The notes below the pieces were generated by a model. It did no database searches. It was not told the origin of the DNA and saw only the letters and a program-made list of their open reading frames with translations. 38,028 nt of DNA from a virus: IMG/VR virus record IMGVR_UViG_3300027810_000024, positions 1 through 38,028 of that record. One strand, given 5' to 3'. Made by a program: the position numbers and the translations under genes. Shown here piece after piece: positions 14,405-28,115 of the stretch (the first letter of the stretch is position 1; each line of letters begins with the position of its first letter).

Positions 14405-17400
14405 TTAGTTTAACAACGAACCTGCGTTATTGTATACGTTGATGCGGTAGTGTGCACCGTGTTGTCCATCTAACAAGTCCGCATCCAAACCACTTGAGGC
14501 ACCATCCACTGCTTTGATTGCGGTCAATGTGTCGGCATTTGATCTGTTAGTAAATGTGTACGCACCACTACTTGAGTTGTAAGCAAGTTGACCACTTGCA
14601 CTAAACATTCCTCTAACATTCGCAGAGTCAATATCCATCACACCAGTAGAAGCATTATATGCAAGTCCGTTACGACCTGCGATAGATGCTCTTGCTCTTG
14701 CGTTGGTGTAGTAGAGATTGGTGTTCTCGGCCAAGTTCGCAGTAGTGAATGGACTTAGGTTAATATTATCAACAAAGTCATCTCCGCTTGTTGCGATAGT
14801 AAGATTACCATTACTTGAGTCGTATGTTACCCCAGTGATACCAGATACACCAATCGTTCCTGCACTGTCAACAAAACCATTTGAGTCGATAGTGAGGACA
14901 GGGATTGCAGTTGCGGAACCATATATTCCTGCGGTTACTGTAGTTTGTGCATCACGGTTGACTTCACCAGTGAATATACCACCCGCAAAGTTACCACTCG
15001 CATCACGGGCAATGATTGCAGACCCAGTGTTTGCGGCAGTAGCAGTTGTTGCAGAGTTATTTACCTTACCCGCAGTAGCGATTGTAGCAAGTTTAGTGTC
15101 TACAATTGCGGCATCGGACTTGATATCTGCGTTAATGATTGTGTCTGAAGTAATCGCTGCTGCGATACTGATAGATGAACCACCGTTGAATGAGGTTGCA
15201 GTACCAGTCACATCACCATTGATTGCAATGGTTCTTGCATTCTGTAGGAGTGTTGCGGTAGAGGCATTACCAGTTACCGCACCAGTCAAGGCACCAGTAA
15301 AGGATGCAGCTTCCACATCACCTAGTGCAAAGTTACCACCACTAGTGTTTACGTTTCCTGCGATATCAAGGTCGTATCTATCAAAGAACTTAAACTTAGT
15401 TGCGGATGCATCATAGAACATACCCGCATGAGTAAAGGGTTGTGAACCCGTATTGTAGTTACCAAAGAAACCAAAGTCTTCGTTAAGTGGTGCAGCGGCA
15501 CCTTTCCATACGTCACCACTATCGTGACCGTTGTCTGTACCAACATCTAGAGTAATATTGAAACGAAGTGGAATGTTTGTTAGACCATTAGTCTTTAAGT
15601 TCCAATCAGAGTCTCCACCCGCAGAATCGAATCCTACGTGTTTGAACGCACCAATGCCCGGCCCACCATTCGCAGAGTCAAGACCCCATCGAATGACATC
15701 ACCCGCAGCAGCACTATCCGCATCGTAGATTTGTACAAAGTATGTTTGTGTAACGTCACCCTTATAATGATCCTTAAAGAGTACGTTGTTGACACCTGAG
15801 TCACCAACACGTAGTGCAGTAGTGATTGTGTCACCTTCTTGTACAGAGATAAACTGGTCACCAACCGCAAGAGTGGCAACCGAAGTCTTAGACTCGGAAC
15901 CAAGGATGTTCAAGTTACCTGCGATAGTTACATTACCATCGAATCTTGATACACCATCAACTCGTACTGTTTCAAATACTTCTGCTTTCAGGTCAACCTG
16001 AATACAACCACCTACACCACCACCAGCACCAGCGGAGTCAGCAACAAGTACTGTACCAATCTCAAATGCGTAGTTGGGGAATACTGGGGTGGCAGTTACC
16101 AACTCACCCGCAGAATCAGGGGATACGTGTATTCTATTACCCGCAGAAAATGCCGCAGTGTTAAGACCACCGAACAGACCACGAGTTGTTACGAAACCAA
16201 AGGCACCGTTTGCAATTACGTGTGCAGTAAGACCAAGTGTGTTTTGAACAGTAGAGAACGCATTCGCCCTTCCAAGTGCAATGGTAGGGAAGTCATTGGA
16301 TGCGCCAGATACGTATACTGCCTTACCCTTTGCGATACTAGTACCACTGTTGTTATATACACGAGTAACATCATCTTGAGAAAGTTTTATAGTTATGTCA
16401 GCATTCTGATACGCTAGTGCGTCAGGGCCATTCATGTAGAACAGGTTACCTTCACGCAACGTTGGAACAACCGCACCAGTGTACTCAGAGTTTGACATCT
16501 GCACTAGATTGAATTCAGCACTATCCGCAGTTATTTTTCTATCCGCAACTATGTCCAGAGTTGACCGAACATTATCAAATGTCTCAGATGATGGACGAAC
16601 AAGTGTTTTACCACCAGCACCAGCAGAGTCACCCTTAATAACCCAACCAATCGTGAATGGGAAATCTGAACCAGTAGGTTTTGTTGTTGTAATCTTACCA
16701 GCGGAATCGGGAGATACATAGAGTGTAGCACCCGCAGTGAATCCCGCAGTATTCATATCGTTAACGAAACCAAGTTGTGTAATAAAACCGTGTGCGTTGT
16801 TTACGATGTCGTGTGTTGCAAGACCTATTGCCTTGTAGGTAGTAGCTGAGTTTGCACGAGCAAGTGCTACGGTTGGATGGTCTCCATTGCCAACTTCGGC
16901 ACCAGTAATGTATACCGCAGACCCATTATTAATTTGGGCACCAGAGACGTTCTTAACTTTAACAATGAATTCTTGACCCATGTTAACAGTAACGTCATTT
17001 GCACTAGTTGGATAGTAAGACAATGCTTCTGCAGCACTATCATAGAACATACGACCTTTGGTATAAGCAGGATTTCCGTTAGTGTTTCCGAGGTCTATAA
17101 ATCCGTCAACATCAATATTATTAAATTGTACATTTGAAGTAGTTGCGACTGCCTGTCCGATAGAGATTGCACCACCCGAATAGGTGACACCAGTTCCCGC
17201 ACTAAGATGTGCTCTTACTTCGGTTGCACTTGGGCCAGTATATGTAATGACACCATTTGAATAGGATAGAGAACCATCACCACCAGCATCGGTTACCGAG
17301 AACATTCCCTTAACGTTTGCGGAGTCAATGTTAAACTGACCACCAGACGTTACCGACAAACCTTTGTTTGCGGTTAGATGCGCTCTTACTTCTGTTGCAC

Positions 17401-19930
17401 TTGGGCCAGTGTAAGTAAATACACCAGTCGCACTATCGTATGCGAGAGAACCGTCTCCACCCGCATCGTTAACAAGTAGAGATGCCTTTGCATCACTGTC
17501 AGCACGTGCGGTAGTGTAATAAAGATTGTTTCCTTCGGATACGTTGGTTGTGGACTTAGTTGCAAGTCTAATATCAAAGTCAGAGTCCGACCGAACCGTA
17601 GTGTAATAGAGGTTTGAACCTTCGGTGACATTAGCAGTTGTTTTGGTAGCAAGTCTAATATCAAAGTCTGAATCAGAACGAGCAGTAGTGTAATAGAGGT
17701 TGGTTCCTTCGGGTAACTGTGCTGTATTCGCATCACCTAGGTCACTATCAAAGTTTGCTTTGGTGTATACAGTCTCAACATCAAAGGAGTATTGACCAGT
17801 AGAAGAGTTATATGTTAAGTCTCCACCCGCAGAGAATAGACCACGTACCGCAGAAGTTGATGTCGCATCAAACCCAGTGATACCACCAAGTGCAGTAATG
17901 TTTGCAGAATCAAAGGTTGCTTGACTTCCCACCATGTTTGTGTTGGTGAGTGTAGTAATAGTTGCGGAATCAAAGGTTGCTTGACTTCCTACCAAGGTTG
18001 TGTTATTGAGTGTGCCAATAGTCGCAGTAGTAATACCCGCACTATCAATCTGTGTCACTAGACGTGAAAGGAAGTCGGAATCAAAGTTTGCTTTGGTATA
18101 AATCTGTTCAACATCAATCGAGAAACGACCAGTTGAACTATCATAGGTCATGTCTCCGCCAGCACTGAAGTGTGCTCTTGTTTCCGAAGCACTTGGGCCA
18201 GTATAGGTTAATACACCAGTAGAAGTGTTGTACGAAAGAGAACCGTCTCCACCCGCATCGTTAACTGATTGGGAGTTTCTTGCTCTCACATCAGTGTAGT
18301 ACAAGTTACCTTGTTCTGTCAGGGTGCTTGTCGTGAAAGGACTAAGATTAATTCGTGTAGTGAATGTTGCACCATCGGCAGTACCGATTGAGATATCACC
18401 GTCCGAAGAGTCGAATGTAAATGATGTTACACCCGCAACCGCAACAGAACCCGCACTGTCTAACTGACCCTGTGCGTTTACCGTGAATACCGGAATCTGT
18501 GTTGCAGAACCATAGGTCGCAGCAGCAACACCAGTATTTGTAATAGAGATTGTATCACCACTACTATCATAACTGATACCTGTACCACCGACCAATGCGT
18601 CACCAAGGTCACTATCAAAGTTTACTTTAGTGTATACGTCTTCTACATCAAACGAAAATGCACCAGTAGAACTATTGTATGTTAAGTCACCAGTAGCAGA
18701 GAACATGCCTTTGATATTTGCAGAGTCTATATCAAACACACCCGTAGATGAATTGTATACTAGACCTTTATCTCCAGATACATATCCACGAACACTTGCG
18801 GTAGATGTTGCATCACCCAATGCAGAGTCGAATCTTGCACGAGTATAATATAAGTTAGACCCTTCGGTTAAACTTGCGGTGGTTGACGATGTTTCGTCTA
18901 ATAGTTTGTGCCATGCACCCGCATGTGAAAAGTAACCCTTACCAGTTCCATGTACGTGTGCGAACATACCATGATAGGTTGATGCACTAGGTAAGTCGCC
19001 TTCCGCACTGTACATGTTACCGAATAGAACTTTACCAGTAGTTACAAGACTCTCACTACCTAATGTCCAGTAATCGTTAGTCTCGTCCCATAAGAAACTC
19101 TTGTTAGCACTGTCACCACGTTCAACTTCAATACCACTATTCTGGGATGGTGCACCAGTTGCGTTTGAGTTGAGGATGATTGTGTTGTCAGCAAGGTTAA
19201 TCGTTTCCGTGTTTACTACGGTCTCTGTTCCGGTAATCGTCAGGTTACCCTGAAGAATTGTATTACCAGTTACCAGAAGGTTACCAATTGCAGCACTGTC
19301 TAGTGTTGCAGCTTTACCTGTTAAGACTGAGTTTGCAATGTTTGTAATGGTCGCACTATCAACAGTCGCACCGTTAACTACAGTTACACCTTGGTGGAAC
19401 GTCTCATTGATATTGGTTCGTGCAATATCTGAATCATTGAATACAAACGAACCCGCATTACTGTCAAAGGACATAATTGCTGTGTTGTTTGTACTTAGAG
19501 ATATGCCTAGGTTGAGTTTATTATTCTGTGAATCAACAATGATTAAGTCACCACCACTGTCTTTCAGTGATAGTGTTCCTAGACCAATAGTGTTACCACT
19601 CAGGTATATGTCACGGAACCTCTTGGTTGCACTACCTAAGTCATATGCTTCGTTCGAGTCTGGAATTAAAGAACCCGTAAATGCAGTATTGTCAAAACCA
19701 AATGTGTACTTATTCTGTGCACTATCAAAATCGAGATTTATGTTTGCATCGGTTCGTAAGTTGGTGATCTCCCACTTACCAGAAAGTTTGTTATATGCGA
19801 GTATGGAACCATCAGATTCCGTGGCAGTAACATCTACACCAGCGAGGTTTCCTATACTGAAAGCACCAGCGGTCACTCGTTTAATAGGAGTTCCGACAAC
19901 TACCTTTTTTACAATGATTTTATCAGCCAT
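14405..19930 (-). CDS. Giant repeat-rich tail fibre-like structural protein
   Basis: 1841 aa from the ATG at 19930. The frame stays open to 20062, but this ATG is preceded by GGAAGGAA and begins with MADKIIVKKVVVG, a usual opening of such proteins. The protein has a head region with a 'YDLGSATKRFRDIYLSGNTI' block (about residues 126-145), many copies of 'SAxGDLTYNSSTGxFSFDVE' and 'GSNLYYTTAR', two similar 'G.AVY.(T/S)GA' modules in the middle, and an end with DADLLDGQHGAHY. These are features of trimeric beta-rich fibres in marine T4-like phages. The function in host binding is inferred. It follows the BppU-like gene closely and precedes gp13, where T4 has wac (fibritin), to which I see no similarity. 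Confidence 0.8.
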   Translation of the reverse strand: MADKIIVKKVVVGTPIKRVTAGAFSIGNLAGVDVTATESDGSILAYNKLSGKWEITNLRTDANINLDFDSAQNKYTFGFDNTAFTGSLIPDSNEAYDLGSATKRFRDIYLSGNTIGLGTLSLKDSGGDLIIVDSQNNKLNLGISLSTNNTAIMSFDSNAGSFVFNDSDIARTNINETFHQGVTVVNGATVDSATITNIANSVLTGKAATLDSAAIGNLLVTGNTILQGNLTITGTETVVNTETINLADNTIILNSNATGAPSQNSGIEVERGDSANKSFLWDETNDYWTLGSESLVTTGKVLFGNMYSAEGDLPSASTYHGMFAHVHGTGKGYFSHAGAWHKLLDETSSTTASLTEGSNLYYTRARFDSALGDATSTASVRGYVSGDKGLVYNSSTGVFDIDSANIKGMFSATGDLTYNSSTGAFSFDVEDVYTKVNFDSDLGDALVGGTGISYDSSGDTISITNTGVAAATYGSATQIPVFTVNAQGQLDSAGSVAVAGVTSFTFDSSDGDISIGTADGATFTTRINLSPFTTSTLTEQGNLYYTDVRARNSQSVNDAGGDGSLSYNTSTGVLTYTGPSASETRAHFSAGGDMTYDSSTGRFSIDVEQIYTKANFDSDFLSRLVTQIDSAGITTATIGTLNNTTLVGSQATFDSATITTLTNTNMVGSQATFDSANITALGGITGFDATSTSAVRGLFSAGGDLTYNSSTGQYSFDVETVYTKANFDSDLGDANTAQLPEGTNLYYTTARSDSDFDIRLATKTTANVTEGSNLYYTTVRSDSDFDIRLATKSTTNVSEGNNLYYTTARADSDAKASLLVNDAGGDGSLAYDSATGVFTYTGPSATEVRAHLTANKGLSVTSGGQFNIDSANVKGMFSVTDAGGDGSLSYSNGVITYTGPSATEVRAHLSAGTGVTYSGGAISIGQAVATTSNVQFNNIDVDGFIDLGNTNGNPAYTKGRMFYDSAAEALSYYPTSANDVTVNMGQEFIVKVKNVSGAQINNGSAVYITGAEVGNGDHPTVALARANSATTYKAIGLATHDIVNNAHGFITQLGFVNDMNTAGFTAGATLYVSPDSAGKITTTKPTGSDFPFTIGWVIKGDSAGAGGKTLVRPSSETFDNVRSTLDIVADRKITADSAEFNLVQMSNSEYTGAVVPTLREGNLFYMNGPDALAYQNADITIKLSQDDVTRVYNNSGTSIAKGKAVYVSGASNDFPTIALGRANAFSTVQNTLGLTAHVIANGAFGFVTTRGLFGGLNTAAFSAGNRIHVSPDSAGELVTATPVFPNYAFEIGTVLVADSAGAGGGVGGCIQVDLKAEVFETVRVDGVSRFDGNVTIAGNLNILGSESKTSVATLAVGDQFISVQEGDTITTALRVGDSGVNNVLFKDHYKGDVTQTYFVQIYDADSAAAGDVIRWGLDSANGGPGIGAFKHVGFDSAGGDSDWNLKTNGLTNIPLRFNITLDVGTDNGHDSGDVWKGAAAPLNEDFGFFGNYNTGSQPFTHAGMFYDASATKFKFFDRYDLDIAGNVNTSGGNFALGDVEAASFTGALTGAVTGNASTATLLQNARTIAINGDVTGTATSFNGGSSISIAAAITSDTIINADIKSDAAIVDTKLATIATAGKVNNSATTATAANTGSAIIARDASGNFAGGIFTGEVNRDAQTTVTAGIYGSATAIPVLTIDSNGFVDSAGTIGVSGITGVTYDSSNGNLTIATSGDDFVDNINLSPFTTANLAENTNLYYTNARARASIAGRNGLAYNASTGVMDIDSANVRGMFSASGQLAYNSSSGAYTFTNRSNADTLTAIKAVDGASSGLDADLLDGQHGAHYRINVYNNAGSLLN
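17511..17771 (-). repeat. Three 87-bp tandem repeats inside the giant fibre gene
   Basis: The string gtagtgtaat recurs at 17511, 17598 and 17685, an exact spacing of 87 nt (29 codons). Each unit encodes a version of NLYYTTARSDSDFDIRLATK. The copies differ at silent positions, so the repeat is old enough to have drifted, but the frame and length are conserved. Confidence 0.85.
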
Positions 19931-19949
19931 TATTGACGTTCCTTCCTTA

Positions 19950-20318
19950 TTATTTCGTTGCCGATGGAGAAACTTCGGCTTGTCCTTCAAGGACTCGTTG
20001 AATGATTGCGTTATTATCACTATCGGTATAGGAAACTTCCACATCATAAACATATCGACCACGAGGTTTCATCGCATCTGTTTGTGTGTTAGTTAGAGAT
20101 AGGTTTATGATTCCATCAGTTGATGGAGATACAACCACGGCATTAAATTGAACTGTAAAGGGATCATTTGCGGAATCAGCATATCTGCGTTTTAGACTGG
20201 CAGCTACGCTGTGGTTGGTGAGGTTATATGTACTACCACTGTCATGCACCAGATGTATTTCTACAGAAACATCGGTGCCTTGATTAATGGTAATATCTTC
20301 GTAATTTGCTGATGACAT
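19950..20318 (-). CDS. BppU-like small virion/fibre-associated protein
   Basis: 122 aa. The pattern INQGTDVSVEIHL, YNLTNHSVAASLKRRYAD, GIINLSLTNTQTDAMKPRGRYVYDVEV and VLEGQAEVSPSAT resembles the N-terminal immunoglobulin-like domain of BppU/upper baseplate proteins. It probably serves as an attachment or collar component for the fibre encoded next to it, which is inference. It has its own late promoter 40 nt upstream. Stop to next start is 19 nt. Confidence 0.65.
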   Translation of the reverse strand: MSSANYEDITINQGTDVSVEIHLVHDSGSTYNLTNHSVAASLKRRYADSANDPFTVQFNAVVVSPSTDGIINLSLTNTQTDAMKPRGRYVYDVEVSYTDSDNNAIIQRVLEGQAEVSPSATK

Positions 20319-20386: not shown

Positions 20387-21070
20387 TTAGTAATCGGACA
20401 TTATTTCTTCTATAATTTCATCTTGTAGTCCGTTGGACATATCGGTTCTATCAAATACATAAGATACCGTAAGTCTCCAACAGTTTGTTTCGGCAGCGTG
20501 ATATACTCGATTGTACCAAGGTTCAGCATACGCACCGAAGTATCCAGCTTTACACTGCCACCCCTTCCTGTCTTTCATGACAACCATCTTACCAGTATGA
20601 CCATCAACATACCTAAAATCACCATCACCAGTTTCTGACCAACTAAAGATTAGGTTATATGCCGAAGCATTGGCATTGTTGTGCCACGAGATAAACCCCT
20701 CTGGTGGATACATAATTTGTAATGCGTTGTTTCTTGTAGACAATAGTGTACAGAGTTCTGTATTCAACTCACCATACTTCGCAAGTATCTTAACCATCTC
20801 CTTTCCGTGATCGGGTTGTCGGGACTCTTCAATCTCATACAGTCTATCATTTTTCAGACTATAACTATATGAAGCATCAGGGAAACCTTCGTGGCCGGTA
20901 TCTTGAGCAATAACCTCGTCACGATATTCGTCAGACATAAAGTGTTCACGGTCTTCCTTACGACCATTTTTCTGTAAATACTTACTAATATGTTCCCGAT
21001 TTTCGTAATACCACTCGAACTTTTTCAGGGTTGCTAGTATTTCTTTGTTGTTGATAGGGACATCAATCAT
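20387..21070 (-). CDS. 2OG-Fe(II) oxygenase-like protein
   Basis: 227 aa from the ATG at 21070. An upstream in-frame ATG at 21097 exists, but the 21070 start overlaps the glycosyltransferase stop in ATGA and has AAGGA 12 nt upstream. Residues 121-160 (YPPEGFISWHNNAN then GDGDFRYVD) and 187-206 (NRVYHAAETNCWRLTVSYVF) form the double-stranded beta-helix pattern of 2-oxoglutarate/Fe(II) hydroxylases. Expected iron ligands are His130 and His191 with Arg199 binding 2OG. The middle ligand, normally Asp in HxD, is Asn132. The reaction would be hydroxylation of a protein side chain or sugar. The substrate is not readable. Its coupling to a glycosyltransferase and its place among fibre genes suggest virion protein modification. 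The family call is moderate. Confidence 0.62.
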   Translation of the reverse strand: MIDVPINNKEILATLKKFEWYYENREHISKYLQKNGRKEDREHFMSDEYRDEVIAQDTGHEGFPDASYSYSLKNDRLYEIEESRQPDHGKEMVKILAKYGELNTELCTLLSTRNNALQIMYPPEGFISWHNNANASAYNLIFSWSETGDGDFRYVDGHTGKMVVMKDRKGWQCKAGYFGAYAEPWYNRVYHAAETNCWRLTVSYVFDRTDMSNGLQDEIIEEIMSDY

Positions 21071-21816
21071 ACTATAGGTGTGTCCTTTTGTAAACATCCT
21101 GAGTAATGTCTAAGGATAGGTGGAGCACCAGTCTTAGACTTCAAACCTTCGTATCCGTATTGTGTAAAGTAATTCCATCGGATATCATCTTCAAAGATTC
21201 CAATCTTGAGGTCTTTGTATTTATCAACCTTATTCACTAACCACCAGAGGGTTGTCTGATCGAAATGTCGGAGGTCTTTAACCCACTGTTCTTTATCGAA
21301 TCCATCGGGCATCCATCTATTATCATATTGTTTACAATACAGTTCATACCAATCGTCCATAAACTCTTTTACTAATGGACTTCCGCTGCGATATAAACAC
21401 ACTCCCCCGCACAATTTATACTTCTCATATCCACCATTGTACTTGAACTCACGAATAGCATAGAATTGTTCACGTTCCTTGGTCAACTCGTGAAAGACCA
21501 TATCATAGTCTTTCATCTCATCCCAGATTGTCATGATGTCTTCGTGTTCACACTCCATATCTGCATCGACATACATCGTAATGTCATAAGGTGTGTTTGC
21601 CATACCCCACAGTTTTTCACGGTAGTGTCCACCACAGATGATAATTTGATCAGTGTCTTCGGTTTCACGGCCGTCAAAGAACCTTTCCTCGGTCACCAAG
21701 GTGATGAGTGCTTCTGGGTAATAGTCTTTGATTGATTGTATTAGATTTATTGCATAAGTGTAAAAATTAATATTTCTTGATGCAACAATAACAAAACCTT
21801 TACTTAGTTCCGACAT
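21067..21816 (-). CDS. Glycosyltransferase, GT-A fold
   Basis: 249 aa. It opens with a beta strand and helix (GFVIVASRNINFYTYAINLIQSI), followed by TLVTEERF, the metal-binding DxD motif in YVDADME (Asp84, Asp86), CGGVCLYRSG (136-145), FDQTTLWWLV (185-194) and PPILRHYSG (232-240). This order matches GT8-like nucleotide-sugar transferases. No membrane segment or signal is visible, so it acts in the cytoplasm. Acceptors could be virion proteins or, less likely, DNA. It overlaps the upstream gene by 17 nt and the oxygenase-like gene by 4 nt, forming one translational unit. Confidence 0.8.
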   Translation of the reverse strand: MSELSKGFVIVASRNINFYTYAINLIQSIKDYYPEALITLVTEERFFDGRETEDTDQIIICGGHYREKLWGMANTPYDITMYVDADMECEHEDIMTIWDEMKDYDMVFHELTKEREQFYAIREFKYNGGYEKYKLCGGVCLYRSGSPLVKEFMDDWYELYCKQYDNRWMPDGFDKEQWVKDLRHFDQTTLWWLVNKVDKYKDLKIGIFEDDIRWNYFTQYGYEGLKSKTGAPPILRHYSGCLQKDTPIV

Positions 21817-22249
21817 CTTCTAATGATTCCTGTACCAATAAAATAGCATATAAATTCACTTCAGGGACAGATTTAGACCGTCTTAGTTTTGATTTCAACA
21901 AACGATTTTTGGATTCCTTAATCTCTGGAATTTCAAAGGTTTCTAGTTTATACTCAAAGAGTTGTTCTAGTTTCTTTGCACGTTCGTGTTCCATTTTCTT
22001 TTGTTTTTCGATGTCTGCTTCGTCTTGTTTTTTCGACAATCGTTTTTGACTAGAAGCATTAATCTTTTCTTCACCGAGAAATTCAATCGCTTCTATGAAC
22101 AATTCATTGGGGGTGCCATCAGCATTCAATTTCTCTATTTTGTGAACCTGACGTTTAGTTTTATTACCGTCAACTTCTTCGCTTATTGCGTTTAATAACT
22201 CTTTTCTGGGTGTTTCCCAAAACGCATTATCTAACCATGTTCTAGACAT
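21800..22249 (-). CDS. Lys/Glu-rich coiled-coil protein, unknown function
   Basis: 149 aa from the ATG at 22249, chosen over 22267 because AGGAGA sits just before it and would lie inside the longer reading. The N-terminus (SRTWLDNAFWETPRKELLNAISEEVDG) looks like a small folded unit. Residues about 68-125 are a charged helix (KKQDEADIEKQKKMEHERAKKLEQLFEYK). I do not recognise a family. It sits between the repeat fibres and the glycosyltransferase, with overlapping coding ends, so a role as a chaperone or adaptor for fibre assembly or modification is possible, as inference only. Confidence 0.75.
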   Translation of the reverse strand: MSRTWLDNAFWETPRKELLNAISEEVDGNKTKRQVHKIEKLNADGTPNELFIEAIEFLGEEKINASSQKRLSKKQDEADIEKQKKMEHERAKKLEQLFEYKLETFEIPEIKESKNRLLKSKLRRSKSVPEVNLYAILLVQESLEDVGTK

Positions 22250-22288
22250 TATAGTCTCCTGTTTCATTCAGTTTTATATATAAGTAAT

Positions 22289-24727
22289 TTATGCCGTTCT
22301 ATGATATAAGGTGTATGTCTCAATAGTAGACGAGTTGGTATCAATTGTGGTTCCTACATAGTTTCCTGTGTAATTACCAGCAAAGTCTTGTGTGCTAGTT
22401 GAAGTGTATGCGCTCGAACGAGTCACCGTAGATACCCCAGTGGACGCCCTAGTCGAATCGGTCGTAGATGTTCTAAGGTAATCAGCCGCATAACTCGAAG
22501 TCCGTGTTCTTTGATAGACAGCAGAATAGGTCGAACTTCTTGTTCTATTATAGGCCAGTGAGTATGCGGAACTTCTGGTTCTCTGATAATCCGCAGAGTA
22601 CGCACGAGCATAGTTTCCGGTATATTCTCCAAGGAAATTACCAGTAAATGTCTGGGTAAAGTTGGTGGTATAATCCGCAGAGAATGCACGAGCATAGTTA
22701 CCAACATAGTTACCTAAGAAGTTACCAACGTAATCAGTTATACGAGTACGTGTAGACGTTCTCTGGTAATCCGCAGAAAATGCACGAGCATAGTTACCAA
22801 CATAGTTACCTAAGTAGTAAGCAGTGTAATTCGTTGCACGTGTTCTCTGGTAGTTGGTGGCACGAGTTCTCTGGTAGTTGGTAGCACGAGTTCTGTTGTA
22901 TGCGGTAGCACGAGTTCTGTTGTATGCGGTAGCACGTGTTCTTGAGTAGTTTCCTACGAAGTTACCAGTGTAGTTACCCACAAAGTTACCCGTGTAGTTA
23001 CCCACATAGTATAAAGTTCTGGCATAGTTACCAACATAGTAAAGTGTTCTGGCATAGTTACCAACATAGTATAAACTTCTGGCATAGTTACCTTGATAGA
23101 ACACTATTCTGTTATAGTTATAAGTTTGACCACTACCACTGCCAATGGTGCGAGAATAAGAAAGCTGTGCTGAACGTGTTCTTGCGTATGAAGCACCTGC
23201 TACACGAGTTCTTGCATATGTAGCACCTGCTGTGCGTGTTCTCGCATAGTTGCCAGTGGCTGTACGAGTTCTGTTGTATGCGGTAGCACGAGTTCTGTTG
23301 TATGCAGTCGCTCTTGTTCTTGCATAGTTACCTACGAAGTTACCAGTATAGTTACCTACGAAGTTACCTGTATAGTTACCTACGAAGTTACCAGTATAGT
23401 CTCCTAAGAAGTTACCAACGTAGTCTCCTAAGAAGTTACCAGTAAATACAGCAGTACGTGTTCTTTGATAATCCGCAGAGTATGCGCGAGCATAGTTACC
23501 AACATAGTTACCTAAGTAGTTACCCGCATAATTACCCGTATAGGTTGTTGCACGAGTTCTTTGGTAATCTGCTTGGAAGTTGCGTGAGTAGTTACCAGTA
23601 AAGTTACCAGTGAAGTCCCCAACGTAATCAGTTACACGAGTTCTACTATACACCGCAGAGAAGTTTCTGCTGTAGTTACCAATATAGTTACCCGCAAAGT
23701 TTCGAGCATAGTTACCTATATAGTCACCAACAAAAGTACGAGCATAATTACCCGTATAGTCTCCCCCAAAGTTTCTTGAGTAGTTACCTGTATAGTTGCC
23801 AATGAAAGATAGTACAAAGTTACCAGTAAATGTTCCCGCAAAGGTTCTTGCGAAGTTTCTACTGTAGTTACCAACATAGTTACTAGAACGAGTTCTTGTG
23901 TATGCGGCCGCATAGTCAGTATTCACTGTGTTGTAACGAGTGTCTGATGCTGTACCTCGGTTTGACCAAGTACCCGTGTCAGATGGTGCACCCTGTGCGG
24001 AACTCCGCATCTGGTATGTACCAATACCGGCACTGCTATTTGAGATGCGTGACTGTACCCTTGAACCAAAACTATATCGTATCTCGGCATCGGTCATCTC
24101 TTGGACACCTTGGAAGGTGCCTGTCAGTCCACTTGATCTCTTGATAGCAACAGGTCTCACCGCAGTCGGGGCCGACATTGTGTTCTTTACATAGATATTG
24201 TACGTAGTTCCAGATACACCTGTCTGCAAATTATCCGAAAATACATTTGACTTGTATGTGGTATATCCACTAGGAGCAGATGTCGCAAGTTTATATACGC
24301 CAGGATATTCTGATACTGCGATACGAGATAGGAGACGGTCACTTATTGTATCAACTTCTGCGGAATCTAATTCGTGTAGTTCGGGTGTTCCGCTATTGTC
24401 GGTGAACTCTAGAGGATATCTATATGCCGCAGAGTCTCCCGCAAAATCAGTCACCCCCTCTCTTTGATATAATGAGGTTATCGTCTGTTGCACCGGAGCA
24501 TTGCCATCTGTAAACCCGTGTGTCCCAGAAGCATCATCATACCTAGTATCAGTAAATGCACCAATTATAGTGTTATTAGTACTGACCTCAGTAATCGATG
24601 CCACGTCACTTGAATCTAACGCAGAGAGATGCAGTCCTGCTTGATAAGCAAGATAGTTCTCTTCTGAGGTAGTTATCTCTTTAAGGTCACCATTGGTGCC
24701 TTCGAGTTTTAGTGTGGTAGTTCCCAT
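22289..24727 (-). CDS. (Y/F)xGN repeat fibre-like protein A
   Basis: 812 aa. Residues 1-270 form a non-repeat head with ITTSEENYLAYQ, YPGVYKLATSAPSG and RPVAIKRSSGLTGTFQGVQEMTD, shared with the neighbouring 757-aa gene. The rest is built from two interleaved units: a tetrapeptide GN(Y/F)x (for example YTGNFVGNYTGNF) and an Arg-rich unit RTRATAYN. The very end reads IETYTLYHRTA. Acidic residues are rare in the repeats and Arg frequent, so this part is basic. Probably an extended adhesion fibre, inferred from location and form. A late promoter ends 7 nt before the ATG, and AGGA lies in that gap. Confidence 0.78.
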   Translation of the reverse strand: MGTTTLKLEGTNGDLKEITTSEENYLAYQAGLHLSALDSSDVASITEVSTNNTIIGAFTDTRYDDASGTHGFTDGNAPVQQTITSLYQREGVTDFAGDSAAYRYPLEFTDNSGTPELHELDSAEVDTISDRLLSRIAVSEYPGVYKLATSAPSGYTTYKSNVFSDNLQTGVSGTTYNIYVKNTMSAPTAVRPVAIKRSSGLTGTFQGVQEMTDAEIRYSFGSRVQSRISNSSAGIGTYQMRSSAQGAPSDTGTWSNRGTASDTRYNTVNTDYAAAYTRTRSSNYVGNYSRNFARTFAGTFTGNFVLSFIGNYTGNYSRNFGGDYTGNYARTFVGDYIGNYARNFAGNYIGNYSRNFSAVYSRTRVTDYVGDFTGNFTGNYSRNFQADYQRTRATTYTGNYAGNYLGNYVGNYARAYSADYQRTRTAVFTGNFLGDYVGNFLGDYTGNFVGNYTGNFVGNYTGNFVGNYARTRATAYNRTRATAYNRTRTATGNYARTRTAGATYARTRVAGASYARTRSAQLSYSRTIGSGSGQTYNYNRIVFYQGNYARSLYYVGNYARTLYYVGNYARTLYYVGNYTGNFVGNYTGNFVGNYSRTRATAYNRTRATAYNRTRATNYQRTRATNYQRTRATNYTAYYLGNYVGNYARAFSADYQRTSTRTRITDYVGNFLGNYVGNYARAFSADYTTNFTQTFTGNFLGEYTGNYARAYSADYQRTRSSAYSLAYNRTRSSTYSAVYQRTRTSSYAADYLRTSTTDSTRASTGVSTVTRSSAYTSTSTQDFAGNYTGNYVGTTIDTNSSTIETYTLYHRTA
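22380..23905 (-). repeat. Coding repeat tract of fibre-like protein A
   Basis: The tract is visible in the DNA as repeating 'gtagttacc' and 'cacgagttct' blocks. It encodes tandem GN(Y/F)x tetrapeptides and Arg-rich RTRxTxYN units. Boundaries are approximate, set where the repeat pattern fades. Confidence 0.85.
24642..24676. repeat. 35-bp direct repeat, copy 1
   Basis: A 35-bp block identical to 26929-26963. It lies in the same position of the two paralogous fibre genes and encodes the shared TSEENYLAYQ segment. Surrounding sequence differs between the two genes. Confidence 0.92.
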
Positions 24728-24734
24728 ATCATCC

Positions 24735-24742
24735 TATTTATA
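24735..24742 (-). promoter_or_regulatory. T4-type late promoter box, fibre A and enzyme cassette
   Basis: Exact TATAAATA on the minus strand, overlapping the last codons and stop of the 757-aa gene and ending 7 nt before the ATG of the 812-aa gene. It probably also drives the coiled-coil, glycosyltransferase and oxygenase-like genes. Confidence 0.7.
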
Positions 24743-27011
24743 CAATTCTTACGTACATGGTGTAGGTCTCTATGTTTTCGTTACCTGACCCAATGGTTGT
24801 ACTAGTATAGTTACCTGTAAAGGTTCTAGCATAATCCCCGATGAAGTTTCTATTATAGTTACCAGTGTAGTTACCCGCAAAGTTTCGTGCATAATTACCT
24901 GCATAGTTTGCGCTAAATACTCTGGAATAGTTACCTAGATAGTTACCCGCAAATGCTCTTGTAAATGAAGATGCTCCCGTAAAGTTACTTGAACGAGTAC
25001 GAGCAAAGTTTCTTGAGTAGTTACCTGTAAATGTGGAAGTGAAGTTTCTCGCAAAGTTACCAGTAAAATAAACTGTCCGGTTATTGAGGCTTGTTCTAGT
25101 AGACAGTGCGGTTCCACCAGAATAGTTACCTACATAAGTACCACTCGCACTGTAGCTAGTAGTGTAGTCACCTGTGTAATAGATTGTTCCAGAACCACTT
25201 GATGTGCCACCATATCGGAAACGCATAAAATTTGCAGTACGTACTGCGCCACTGCCAGTACTTGTTCGTGTATAGTCTAAAAAATTACGAATTCTGGTAC
25301 TAGAAGTGGTGCTGGTTCTCAGGAAGTTACTAGCAGCTGTAACTTGTCTACTATAGAAAAGCGCACTACCATGTTTTTGGTGGGTACTGTAACGTGTTAC
25401 CGTATATGTTCGAAGACCTGTATAGTTACCTGTAAAGTTACCTGTAAAGTTACCAGCGAAATCACCAATATAGTCGCCAGTAAAGTTACCTGTAAAGGTG
25501 GTTGCTGATGTACCAATAAAGTCTCTAGCAAAACTTCGAGAATACCCTGCCTGAAAGTTTCTTGCGTAGTTACCAGCAAAGTTTCTTGCGAAATTGTTAG
25601 CAGTGACCCTTTGACTGGTACGTGTACTAGTTGTACCAACATTACCAACATAGTTACCTAAATAATAAACTTGACTTGAGTAGTTGCCGGTGAAAGACCC
25701 ACCAGTTGCTCTAGTGTATGTGCTCGTCCGTGTTGAGGTAACCGTAGAGTCTGTAATACGATTTCTTGAGTAGTCAGCGGCATAGAAACTTGAGTATTGA
25801 AATGTCTCTTGGTCAACACTTACATATAGTGTTCTATAAAAAGATCGAGCAAAGTTTTGACCCAGATAGTTACCAGTAAAGTTACCAATGAAATTACCAG
25901 TGAATGATAATAAACGGGCATAATTACCAGTATAACCGGCCGTACTGGTTCTTAGGAAATCAAGTGTTGATGCCCGTGTGCGAGTGTAAGTGTTCGCAGT
26001 AGTTGTAGTAAAATTACCAATGTAATCCCCAACAAATGATGGAGAGTAAGAACTTGTTCGTGTTGTTACATATGTGGCAGAAAATGTACTCGAACGAGTA
26101 GTAGTAGAATTTCTTAGGAATGTACTACTGCGGTTTCTAGTATAGTTTGCACTATAGGTAGAAGTTCTTAGTCGTGAATATGTCGAGTTACGGGTACGGG
26201 TATAGTTAACATTACTAACAGTTTGACGTGTATCTGTTGCAGTACCCTTTGCTTGCCACGTACCAGCGAATCCCGCATTAGTTGGGGTTCCTGTAGAAGA
26301 ACTCAGTATTTTGTATGTACCAACAGAGTTCGCAGTTGAGGAAGTACGATTCCTTGCTTTAATACCAAGTGAGTATTTAATCTGGCCATCAGTCATTTCC
26401 TGAAGACCTTGATACGTACCCGTTTGACCACTAGACCGTTTAATCGCAAACGGACGAACCGTTGTTGGTGCGGTCATGGTATTTCTTTGATAGATGTTGT
26501 ACTGAAGAGAATGTCCGTCAGTTCTTGTATCTGTCATTACATTAGCAAGATTTACTGAGTAATCTCCACTGGGGGCAGACGTTGCAAGTTTGTAAGTGCC
26601 TGGATAATCTGACGTATAGATTCGTGAATTGATTCTATCGAGAAGGACATTCAGTTTGGTATCGTCCATTTCCTGAACAATTCGTTGACCGTCACTATCT
26701 CTCTGTGATACTAGAACACGATAGTCGTTACCAGAGATAGTGGCAGTACCAGCCTTCTGTCGAATTACCGTGGATATACTTGTTGTCGAAAGAAGATTAG
26801 AATGAGTTCCGACAGCCGAATCGTAGGAAGTATCAGTAAAGGTTCCTACAGTACGATTGTCACCAGACAGGTTTACACCCAACTGATTTACAGATGAACT
26901 ATCGAGTGCCGCAAAACCCAGACCTACCTGATAAGCAAGATAGTTCTCTTCTGAGGTAGTTATTTCTTGGAAGTCTGCGGTGTCTTTTAATTTTAATGGA
27001 ACACTACTCAT
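24738..27011 (-). CDS. (Y/F)xGN repeat fibre-like protein B, paralogue of A
   Basis: 757 aa. The N-terminal 270 residues align with the 812-aa neighbour (ITTSEENYLAYQVGL, YPGTYKLATSAPSG, RPFAIKRSSGQTGTYQGLQEMTD). The repeat tract is more degenerate: fewer perfect GN(Y/F)x runs, more TRTSTYS-like Arg/Ser/Thr units, and a Gly/Ser-rich patch around residues 595-630. The end IETYTMYVRIV matches that of A. Function inferred as adhesion fibre. It lies 10 nt ahead of gene A and 18 nt after the 361-aa gene. Confidence 0.78.
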   Translation of the reverse strand: MSSVPLKLKDTADFQEITTSEENYLAYQVGLGFAALDSSSVNQLGVNLSGDNRTVGTFTDTSYDSAVGTHSNLLSTTSISTVIRQKAGTATISGNDYRVLVSQRDSDGQRIVQEMDDTKLNVLLDRINSRIYTSDYPGTYKLATSAPSGDYSVNLANVMTDTRTDGHSLQYNIYQRNTMTAPTTVRPFAIKRSSGQTGTYQGLQEMTDGQIKYSLGIKARNRTSSTANSVGTYKILSSSTGTPTNAGFAGTWQAKGTATDTRQTVSNVNYTRTRNSTYSRLRTSTYSANYTRNRSSTFLRNSTTTRSSTFSATYVTTRTSSYSPSFVGDYIGNFTTTTANTYTRTRASTLDFLRTSTAGYTGNYARLLSFTGNFIGNFTGNYLGQNFARSFYRTLYVSVDQETFQYSSFYAADYSRNRITDSTVTSTRTSTYTRATGGSFTGNYSSQVYYLGNYVGNVGTTSTRTSQRVTANNFARNFAGNYARNFQAGYSRSFARDFIGTSATTFTGNFTGDYIGDFAGNFTGNFTGNYTGLRTYTVTRYSTHQKHGSALFYSRQVTAASNFLRTSTTSSTRIRNFLDYTRTSTGSGAVRTANFMRFRYGGTSSGSGTIYYTGDYTTSYSASGTYVGNYSGGTALSTRTSLNNRTVYFTGNFARNFTSTFTGNYSRNFARTRSSNFTGASSFTRAFAGNYLGNYSRVFSANYAGNYARNFAGNYTGNYNRNFIGDYARTFTGNYTSTTIGSGNENIETYTMYVRIV
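24795..26215 (-). repeat. Coding repeat tract of fibre-like protein B
   Basis: Imperfect tandem GN(Y/F)x and RTRxSxY units, related to those of the neighbouring gene but more divergent. Boundaries are approximate. Confidence 0.75.
26929..26963. repeat. 35-bp direct repeat, copy 2
   Basis: Identical over 35 bp to 24642-24676, 2287 bp away in the same orientation. A deletion between copies would leave one intact in-frame hybrid fibre gene. Confidence 0.92.
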
Positions 27012-27029: not shown

Positions 27030-28115
27030 TTAATTGAGTTGAGTTCCGCTAGCGTTGTAGATGAGTGGAATGTCCGCTCTCAGCGCGTTTAGGGCATTTA
27101 CAAAGTTAGTTCTTTCTGAACCAGTAAATCCAGCAGAATCTAATAGGTTTAGTGAACCCAATGCTTGGTTTGAAGCGATATTCTCTGCATCAAGTGCTTC
27201 AATATCTGCTTGCATAACATTCAATGCACCGACAATGTTACCATGTCCACTCGCAGTGATGTCTGTACTTAAATCAGCAAGGTTACCTACAGCACTATCT
27301 AGGGAGTTGAGAGATGCACCAATATTACCAGTGGTAGTGTTGTGTGTACTACCAATTGCAGAACCAACCTCGGTATGTAACTCGTTGATTGCACCACGTA
27401 GTGTGGTCGCAGAGGTATTGAGAGATGCAGAACCAATCTCTGCATCGTGTTCGTTGATCGCATCCGCAACCGTTCCCGCAGTAGTGGTCAATGACTGTGT
27501 AGGTTCAACAAAGGTATTGAGTGTATCAATCTCTATTTCTAGTTCTTTAATTGCGGTTGATACCGTAGAGGCAGTTGTACCCATCGCAACCGCAGTGATC
27601 GTACCCAACTCTGCATCATGTTCATTGACCGCAGCAGTAAGATTCTTCGAACTAGTTGTAAGAGTTGTGTGTGGTCTTGCACCAATGTCACTATCAAGTT
27701 CACCAATGGCCAATACTAGGTCATTTGCGGTAGTTGATAGGATAGATGCAACCAGTCCGTTATTAGTTCCCCTGATACCCAATTCAAGTTCATTAACACC
27801 TGATACAATATCATTCGCATTGGTTGTCAAGTCTGCCTTTGCGTTACCACCACCAGCACCGTGAAGGTCACTATCAATTTCATGTAGTGCAGATACGATG
27901 TTGTTTGCGGTAAAGTCTGCAAGGTCTACTGCGACTAGGTTATTTGATGTACCACGAATACCAAGTTCTAACTCATTGATAGCAGAAGTGTGGTCGGAAT
28001 CTTCGCTTGTGTTTAATCGACCCGCAGCACCCAAATCCAACGAGATGATGTTTAGGTTGGATACTAATGTGGTAAACGTATCCTGAATATCAGTAATTGT
28101 CGGTTTATTTGCCAT
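27030..28115 (-). CDS. Fibre-shaft-like structural protein with AINEL repeats
   Basis: 361 aa. It consists of repeating units of about 30-38 residues with the core 'A(I/V)NELxxEIG' (INELELGIRGT, VNELELGIRGT, INEHDAELG, INELHTEVG, LNSLDSAVG), each preceded by a Thr/Ala-rich stretch. Such units are expected to form alternating coiled coil and turns in a trimeric shaft. The C-terminus ends IYNASGTQLN, like the end of the 1841-aa fibre. Start and previous stop overlap in TAATG. A short linker or shaft for the adjoining fibres is likely, by inference. Confidence 0.72.
   Translation of the reverse strand: MANKPTITDIQDTFTTLVSNLNIISLDLGAAGRLNTSEDSDHTSAINELELGIRGTSNNLVAVDLADFTANNIVSALHEIDSDLHGAGGGNAKADLTTNANDIVSGVNELELGIRGTNNGLVASILSTTANDLVLAIGELDSDIGARPHTTLTTSSKNLTAAVNEHDAELGTITAVAMGTTASTVSTAIKELEIEIDTLNTFVEPTQSLTTTAGTVADAINEHDAEIGSASLNTSATTLRGAINELHTEVGSAIGSTHNTTTGNIGASLNSLDSAVGNLADLSTDITASGHGNIVGALNVMQADIEALDAENIASNQALGSLNLLDSAGFTGSERTNFVNALNALRADIPLIYNASGTQLN

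Follow-up and report, generated by a model that had tools for sequence, protein, structure and literature searches.

The window, by which we mean the whole stretch of DNA analyzed, is a 38-kb virus record that was covered over its full 38,028 nt. Its source is a marine T4-like phage infecting bacteria, and its terminase shows 72% identity to that of phage C48C1 (Kyanoviridae) and ~46% to those of cyanophages. Two adjacent minus-strand genes, A (24738..27011, 757 aa) and B (22289..24727, 812 aa), code for fibre-like proteins and are flanked by baseplate-wedge genes on one side and gp13/gp14-like neck genes on the other. The T4-like layout, together with a nearby fibre assembly gene, viz., that for a 122-aa protein (19950..20318, minus strand) matching the PHROG 'L-shaped tail fiber protein assembly' (E = 9e-19), marks this as a tail-fibre region. 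A 1885-aa structural protein (14405..20062, minus strand), which matches both tail-fibre and structural PHROGs, is encoded in the same region, outside the cassette of small genes that follows B. The site is an already known type of host-recognition region: the pelagimyophage host-recognition cluster, a variable stretch flanked by the baseplate gene VrlC and the neck gene gp14, contains tail fibres and glycosyltransferases (PMC7029224). The window likewise runs from baseplate-wedge genes to gp13/gp14 homologs, with VrlC itself not among the genes identified.

Some further features of the window were observed in passing. Upstream of A, positions 27030-28115 code for a 361-aa protein with repeated, helical-looking 'INELE...IG' units, whose homologs are mostly ~350 to 618 aa in length, which suggests a change in copy number. 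A 226-aa ORF on the plus strand (1115-1795), without a match in a Pfam search, begins in a P-loop-like manner and contains 'VRDPIDRARSG', a stretch that looks sulfotransferase-like by eye, and a tRNA-Gly (TCC) gene lies at 991-1064 on the same strand.

Domain organization and repeats of the two fibre-like proteins

A and B are tandem paralogs, as a first-pass annotation of this DNA had proposed, and each is organized as an N-terminal head (A, aa 1-262, 26226..27011; B, aa 1-264, 23936..24727), a long repeat tract (A, aa 263-738, 24798..26225; B, aa 265-793, 22349..23935), and a C-terminal strand (A, 24738..24806, ending NENIETYTMYVRIV; B, 22289..22360, ending STIETYTLYHRTA), all on the minus strand. 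The heads share 47% identity over 269 columns (E = 5e-76), and both proteins finish in IETYT[LM]Y. The aromatic residues of the tracts recur with a 4-residue period that is highly significant against shuffles, the autocorrelation at lags 4, 8, 12, and 16 reaching z ~13-14 in B and z of 10, 8, 7, and 5 in A, with 88/104 consecutive aromatics spaced by multiples of four in B and 59/85 in A. The period noted in the first-pass annotation is therefore real but less strict than described there, since units of 8 and 10 residues are present too. Its distinction between a regular and a degenerate tract agrees with both measures: B, with its (Y/F)xGN and RTRxTxYN units, is the regular one and A the degenerate one, and RTR is found 19 times in B as against three times in A.

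Both tracts are basic (R+K minus D+E of +41 in B and +35 in A), as had been claimed, and almost devoid of Lys and Pro. They differ from collagen-like repeats in having a period of 4 rather than 3 and in their Pro content of 0-0.2%. Profile searches of Pfam and PHROGs with A and B recovered 0 families for either, in keeping with the earlier view that the aromatic/Gly-Asn repeat lies outside the known repeat families. Searches with 32 heads gave Pfam matches at chance level only and no PHROG match, and PDB sequence searches with heads and repeats gave no meaningful match. The two proteins, which had been suspected of being differently specialized, are kept apart as two types, with 17 A and 17 B heads forming separate groups in the window's lineage. 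The repeat tract would form the stalk of the fibre.

The C-terminal strand and the third head module

The head consists of three tandem modules, the third being incomplete, and is modeled in B by AlphaFold2 with a pLDDT of mostly 73-96 for aa 20-272. Profile comparisons relate module 1 to module 2 (P 53, E 1e-4) and module 2 to module 3 (P 93, E 3e-7), with reversed controls giving P below 0.4. When the incomplete third module was joined to the C-terminal 20-odd residues, this query aligned end to end with module 2 (hhalign P 95.6, E 4e-9), placing the ETYTLY of the C-terminal end opposite the TTYNIY of module 2. The AlphaFold2 model of full-length B, run as a monomer, left the tract unmodeled (aa 273-788, pLDDT ~22, which reads neither as order nor as disorder and so speaks neither for nor against the stacked beta structure suggested in the first-pass annotation). 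Despite this, it shows a strand at aa 790-810 with confidence (pLDDT 83-95); the best structural alignment of the model, a weak one, spans aa 41-812. A comparison of the full-length model with viral structures yielded nothing usable.

On the basis of the profile comparison and this one model, the 'IETYTLY' strand is the predicted missing last strand of head module 3. The matching ends are thus common to both proteins, as first noted, but do not constitute a separate distal tip. With the C-terminal strand completing module 3, the tract would lie within a hairpin of the head, and its chain probably runs out and back.

Variation is concentrated in the middle of the tract

Locus L004 is 98.8% identical to the window over the adjoining 8.8 kb. 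Against it, A diverges strongly at aa ~480-640, with a length difference of 58 aa, and B diverges at aa ~440-600, with indels, while the tract flanks retain ~88-100% identity where both sequences are complete; for the C-terminal part of B, which is incomplete in L004, comparison with L031 gives 93-100%. Whether copy number varies between close relatives had been raised in the first-pass annotation; these length changes indicate that it does, and they fall in mid-tract. We delimit the hypervariable part of A, a proposed tip, at aa ~480-645 (25077..25574, minus strand; longest non-periodic stretch aa 530-612) and that of B at aa ~440-600 (22928..23410, minus strand; longest non-periodic stretch aa 468-544).

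Across 13 independent, non-overlapping pairs of close relatives, change amounts to 0-12% in the head and 0-5% at the C-terminus, whereas the mid-tract averages of peak-decile change are 0.57 for A, 0.22 for B, and 0.49 for single-gene forms, some of which may be misplaced given the uncertain alignment of repeats. A conserved anchor with a localized mid-tract peak of variability is thus seen in most of the pairs, with two to three exceptions: no clear peak is apparent in L195/L196 (B) and L179/L024 (A), and that of L181/L010 (B) is weak. The longest non-periodic element of the tracts, which often resembles a foreign domain insertion, is on average nearer to mid-tract than expected by chance, at a mean distance of 0.118 vs ~0.25 expected (p ~5e-5, 46 groups); when relatedness is treated more strictly by grouping the heads into 22, 6, and 4 clusters, p rises to 0.0006, 0.057, and 0.13, respectively. 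We hold with fair confidence that the chain carries a tip at its middle, which would bind the receptor, and with moderate confidence that the path of the chain is looped.

The arms on either side need not match. The non-periodic element of the A group lies near 0.65 of the tract, leaving the arms unequal, and one arm of L050 has an additional 10-residue unit relative to L115; strictly equal arms are ruled out by these cases. An antiparallel pairing of the arms was likewise set aside on account of a mismatch in composition (mean r of -0.09 for Arg and -0.20 for Gly+Asn), and we make no claim of strand-by-strand pairing.

A Pfam search on eight mid-tract inserts gave no significant match. A similar small mid-tract insert was observed in different fibres (L212, L214, L129, L190, L199, L211, L217, and L226), sharing the pattern W-x-G-x-x-V followed by G-x-x-Y-x-R-G, and these might represent one tip-domain family.

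Relatives in other viruses

A search of IMG/VR recovered 64 loci with relatives, which outside the window's lineage show duplications of their own or one gene only. Although the proteins range from 401 aa (L137:7558-8763) to 3347 aa in length, the head and the C-terminal strand persist throughout. Aromatic spacings equal 4 in 58% and 8 in 14% of cases and are even in a mean of 83%. The chemistry of the repeat differs among them, with Y or F, GN or GD, and RTR or none, and L115 and L050 are built of 6- and 10-residue units. Some relatives have less than 1% Tyr or no Arg at all, while Gly, Thr, Phe, and Asn each stay at 2% or more in every case. In three further cases (L061:7983-9968, L062:7983-9899, and L163:6861-8996), Pro-rich tracts of PTxF, DPCTF, and PRSF units replace the GN-rich ones, with the same type of head and C-terminal strand retained.

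Phage C48C1 (OQ984149.1, CDS0201-CDS0204) resembles the window in combining head, repeat tract, and C-terminal strand, followed in identical order by a gene of the 155-aa type, a glycosyltransferase, and an oxygenase (see below), but has one 3347-aa gene in place of the A/B pair; the longest insert of this gene product, 257 aa, falls at 0.54 of the tract. The annotation calls CDS0201 to CDS0204 hypothetical and labels the gene immediately before CDS0201 a tail assembly chaperone. The C48C1 fibre corresponds to L001:11980-22023, and its insert appears domain-like, with a related insert in L030 and L146.

A conserved cassette downstream of the fibre genes

Three minus-strand genes follow B, with reading frames overlapping by 17 and 31 bases. 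The first is a 155-aa gene conserved after the fibre genes (21800..22267), whose C48C1 homolog is annotated as 'tail assembly chaperone'. The second, overlapping both neighbors, codes for a GT-A-like glycosyltransferase (21067..21816) with a D84-x-D86 motif, both aspartates being invariant in 15 diverse sequences, and with weak matches to Glycos_transf_2 in 3/15 members (best E 0.0019). The third codes for a predicted 2OG-Fe(II)-like oxygenase of the prolyl-hydroxylase fold (20387..21097; H139-N-N141 ... H200 ... R208). PDB sequence searches with both enzymes gave no meaningful match.

The AlphaFold2 model of the oxygenase (pLDDT 91) displays a double-stranded beta-helix and matches PHD2/P4H, i.e., the HIF prolyl hydroxylase and a bacterial P4H (Foldseek prob 1.00; Z 11.4 and 10.8), as well as 2OG-Fe(II) oxygenases among viral structures. 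The metal motif H-N-N ... H ... R is present in 36/36 sequences with both His invariant, and R208, the candidate 2-oxoglutarate-binding Arg, is also invariant and opens the last core strand of the model. The acid position of the usual HxD/E...H triad is occupied by Asn in all 36 sequences; as this substitution is unusual, oxygenase activity cannot be assumed. The family is common in viral contigs, with at least 590 relatives.

In the best 80 oxygenase loci, the glycosyltransferase is present in 80/80 and a head or repeat ORF lies upstream in 73/80, the contigs of the remaining 7 ending upstream; conversely, 80 glycosyltransferase loci contain the oxygenase in 80/80 and a repeat ORF in 76/80. 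A few distant loci have a second head gene between the glycosyltransferase and the oxygenase. The two sets share contigs and all belong to one phage lineage, and these figures therefore describe a conserved linkage and not independent co-occurrence; within one lineage, genes could remain together without acting together. Among the named phages of the collection searched, only C48C1 carries any of these genes, for which reason co-occurrence in named phages was dropped as a proof of linkage. A literature phrase search for glycosylated tail fibres found none, which is weak evidence.

Proposed function and alternative explanations

We take the system to be an adhesion fibre of a phage, unusual both in its design and in the enzymes that accompany it. 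We consider moderately probable a joint reading in which the host-recognition region of this T4-like marine phage encodes two adhesion fibres, A and B, each with a looped tract and a mid-chain tip and served by the three downstream genes. Under this proposal, the compact three-module head would anchor each fibre protein, and the tract, ~500 residues in length, would be inserted into the final hairpin of module 3: the chain would exit the head, extend as a stalk, bear the hypervariable receptor-binding tip at its middle and return, upon which the C-terminal strand would close module 3. The tip would contact the host and diversify. The small chaperone-like protein encoded by the 155-aa gene would serve the fibre, and, before assembly, the P4H-fold oxygenase would hydroxylate residues of the tract or head and the glycosyltransferase would add sugar to the fibre. 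As the tract in the window is almost without Lys and Pro, a modification of the tract would have to target residues other than those classic for collagen; the head, in which Pro and Lys residues are conserved, offers an alternative. That the whole amounts to an undescribed fibre design, with an out-and-back chain, a mid-chain tip, and a split head module, coupled to hydroxylation by an HxN enzyme on residues other than Pro or Lys and subsequent glycosylation, is a tentative and rather doubtful extension.

Octad glycine repeats in T4 gp5 form one-way trimeric beta-helices, and with this precedent A and B might form a linear fibre, i.e., a one-way trimeric shaft (e.g., a triple-stranded beta-helix like T4 gp5C), with the C-terminal strand pairing with another subunit or completing the head of the neighboring A or B by donor-strand exchange. 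Being adjacent, the two paralogs could join head to tail; the unequal arms of A and the weak low-complexity matches of a GNVT-type repeat are compatible with such a shaft, and AlphaFold2, having been run on a monomer, can fold a swapped strand onto its own head. We nevertheless judge it quite unlikely: it predicts neither near-invariant ends with a changing middle nor mid-tract inserts, and single-gene relatives, for which no partner paralog was found adjacent, have the same ends. Also unlikely is an intrinsically disordered low-complexity linker, with a period stemming from slippage rather than structure, to which the low pLDDT over aa 273-788, the copy-number changes among close relatives, and the Gly/Thr/Asn/Ser-rich composition would conform. 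Order is, however, poorly tested by a long repeat monomer with a shallow alignment, and the 4-residue/even register is kept across 46 groups under 60% identity, even though the units themselves vary (Y to F, GN to GD, NYAGPT). Slippage alone would not hold aromatics in register, which argues against such a linker.

That the glycosyltransferase and the oxygenase act on the host surface (O-chain) or on host metabolites, and merely share the operon, is a substantial possibility, if one short of probable. The pelagimyophage authors interpret the glycosyltransferases of the cluster as modifying the host O-chain (PMC7029224), and 2OG-Fe(II) oxygenases of cyanophages have been linked to DNA repair or nitrogen signaling (PMC3037559). 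Further, C48C1 has two more oxygenase paralogs distant from its fibre genes, and the GNVT-type repeat of S-RIM2 has no such cassette beside it. Against this stand the strict adjacency and order with the head and repeat genes, the overlapping frames, the 80/80 co-occurrence, the persistence of the pair by the head genes even where the next gene, that for the 122-aa protein, lies several kb off, and the fact that the closest solved folds of the oxygenase are protein hydroxylases. We propose fibres A and B as the substrates of these predicted enzymes. The C48C1 paralogs were observed at L256:10268-10921 and L256:32131-32805, with motifs HNN and HTN, one beside capsid/tail genes and the other beside a NifU-like gene.

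Comparison with known systems

Receptor-binding tips in well-studied phage fibres are mostly C-terminal, and searches for host-range determinants target the C-terminus. With the variable part in mid-chain, searches so focused would miss it. The pairing of an oxygenase and a glycosyltransferase beside a fibre also provides a testable answer to why marine T4-like phages carry such genes and, if true, would be a phage counterpart to collagen-type hydroxylation and glycosylation. The available text of the pelagimyophage study does not describe the repeat, the mid-chain tip, or the oxygenase (PMC7029224).

A virus-encoded hydroxylase is found in both Mimivirus, whose L230 combines hydroxylase and glucosyltransferase activity on a virus-encoded repetitive protein (PMC9546862), and PBCV-1, whose vCPH shares its fold with the modeled window oxygenase (Z 9.5). 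Those systems involve a collagen repeat with Lys or Pro as target, whereas the window presents a non-collagen repeat with almost no Lys or Pro and the metal motif HxN. The C-terminal beta-helix of T4 gp5 and the GN[VL]T repeats of S-RIM2 resemble A and B as short, even-numbered glycine repeats of a phage structural protein, but are aliphatic rather than aromatic and without Arg units, and have neither a head homolog nor a split module around the repeat. S-RIM2 was rejected as a relative: the repeats of its protein are of the GN[VL]T type, and a search for a head homolog there found none.

The best structural alignment of the head is with the MABP beta-prism of MVB12B and perforin-2/MPEG1 (Z 6.2, rmsd 3.6 over 113 residues), a likeness that we treat as a lead only, as Z is below the level of a relationship and there is no sequence match. 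The MABP domain of MPEG1 has a very long beta-hairpin, the tip of which binds membranes (PMC6753088).
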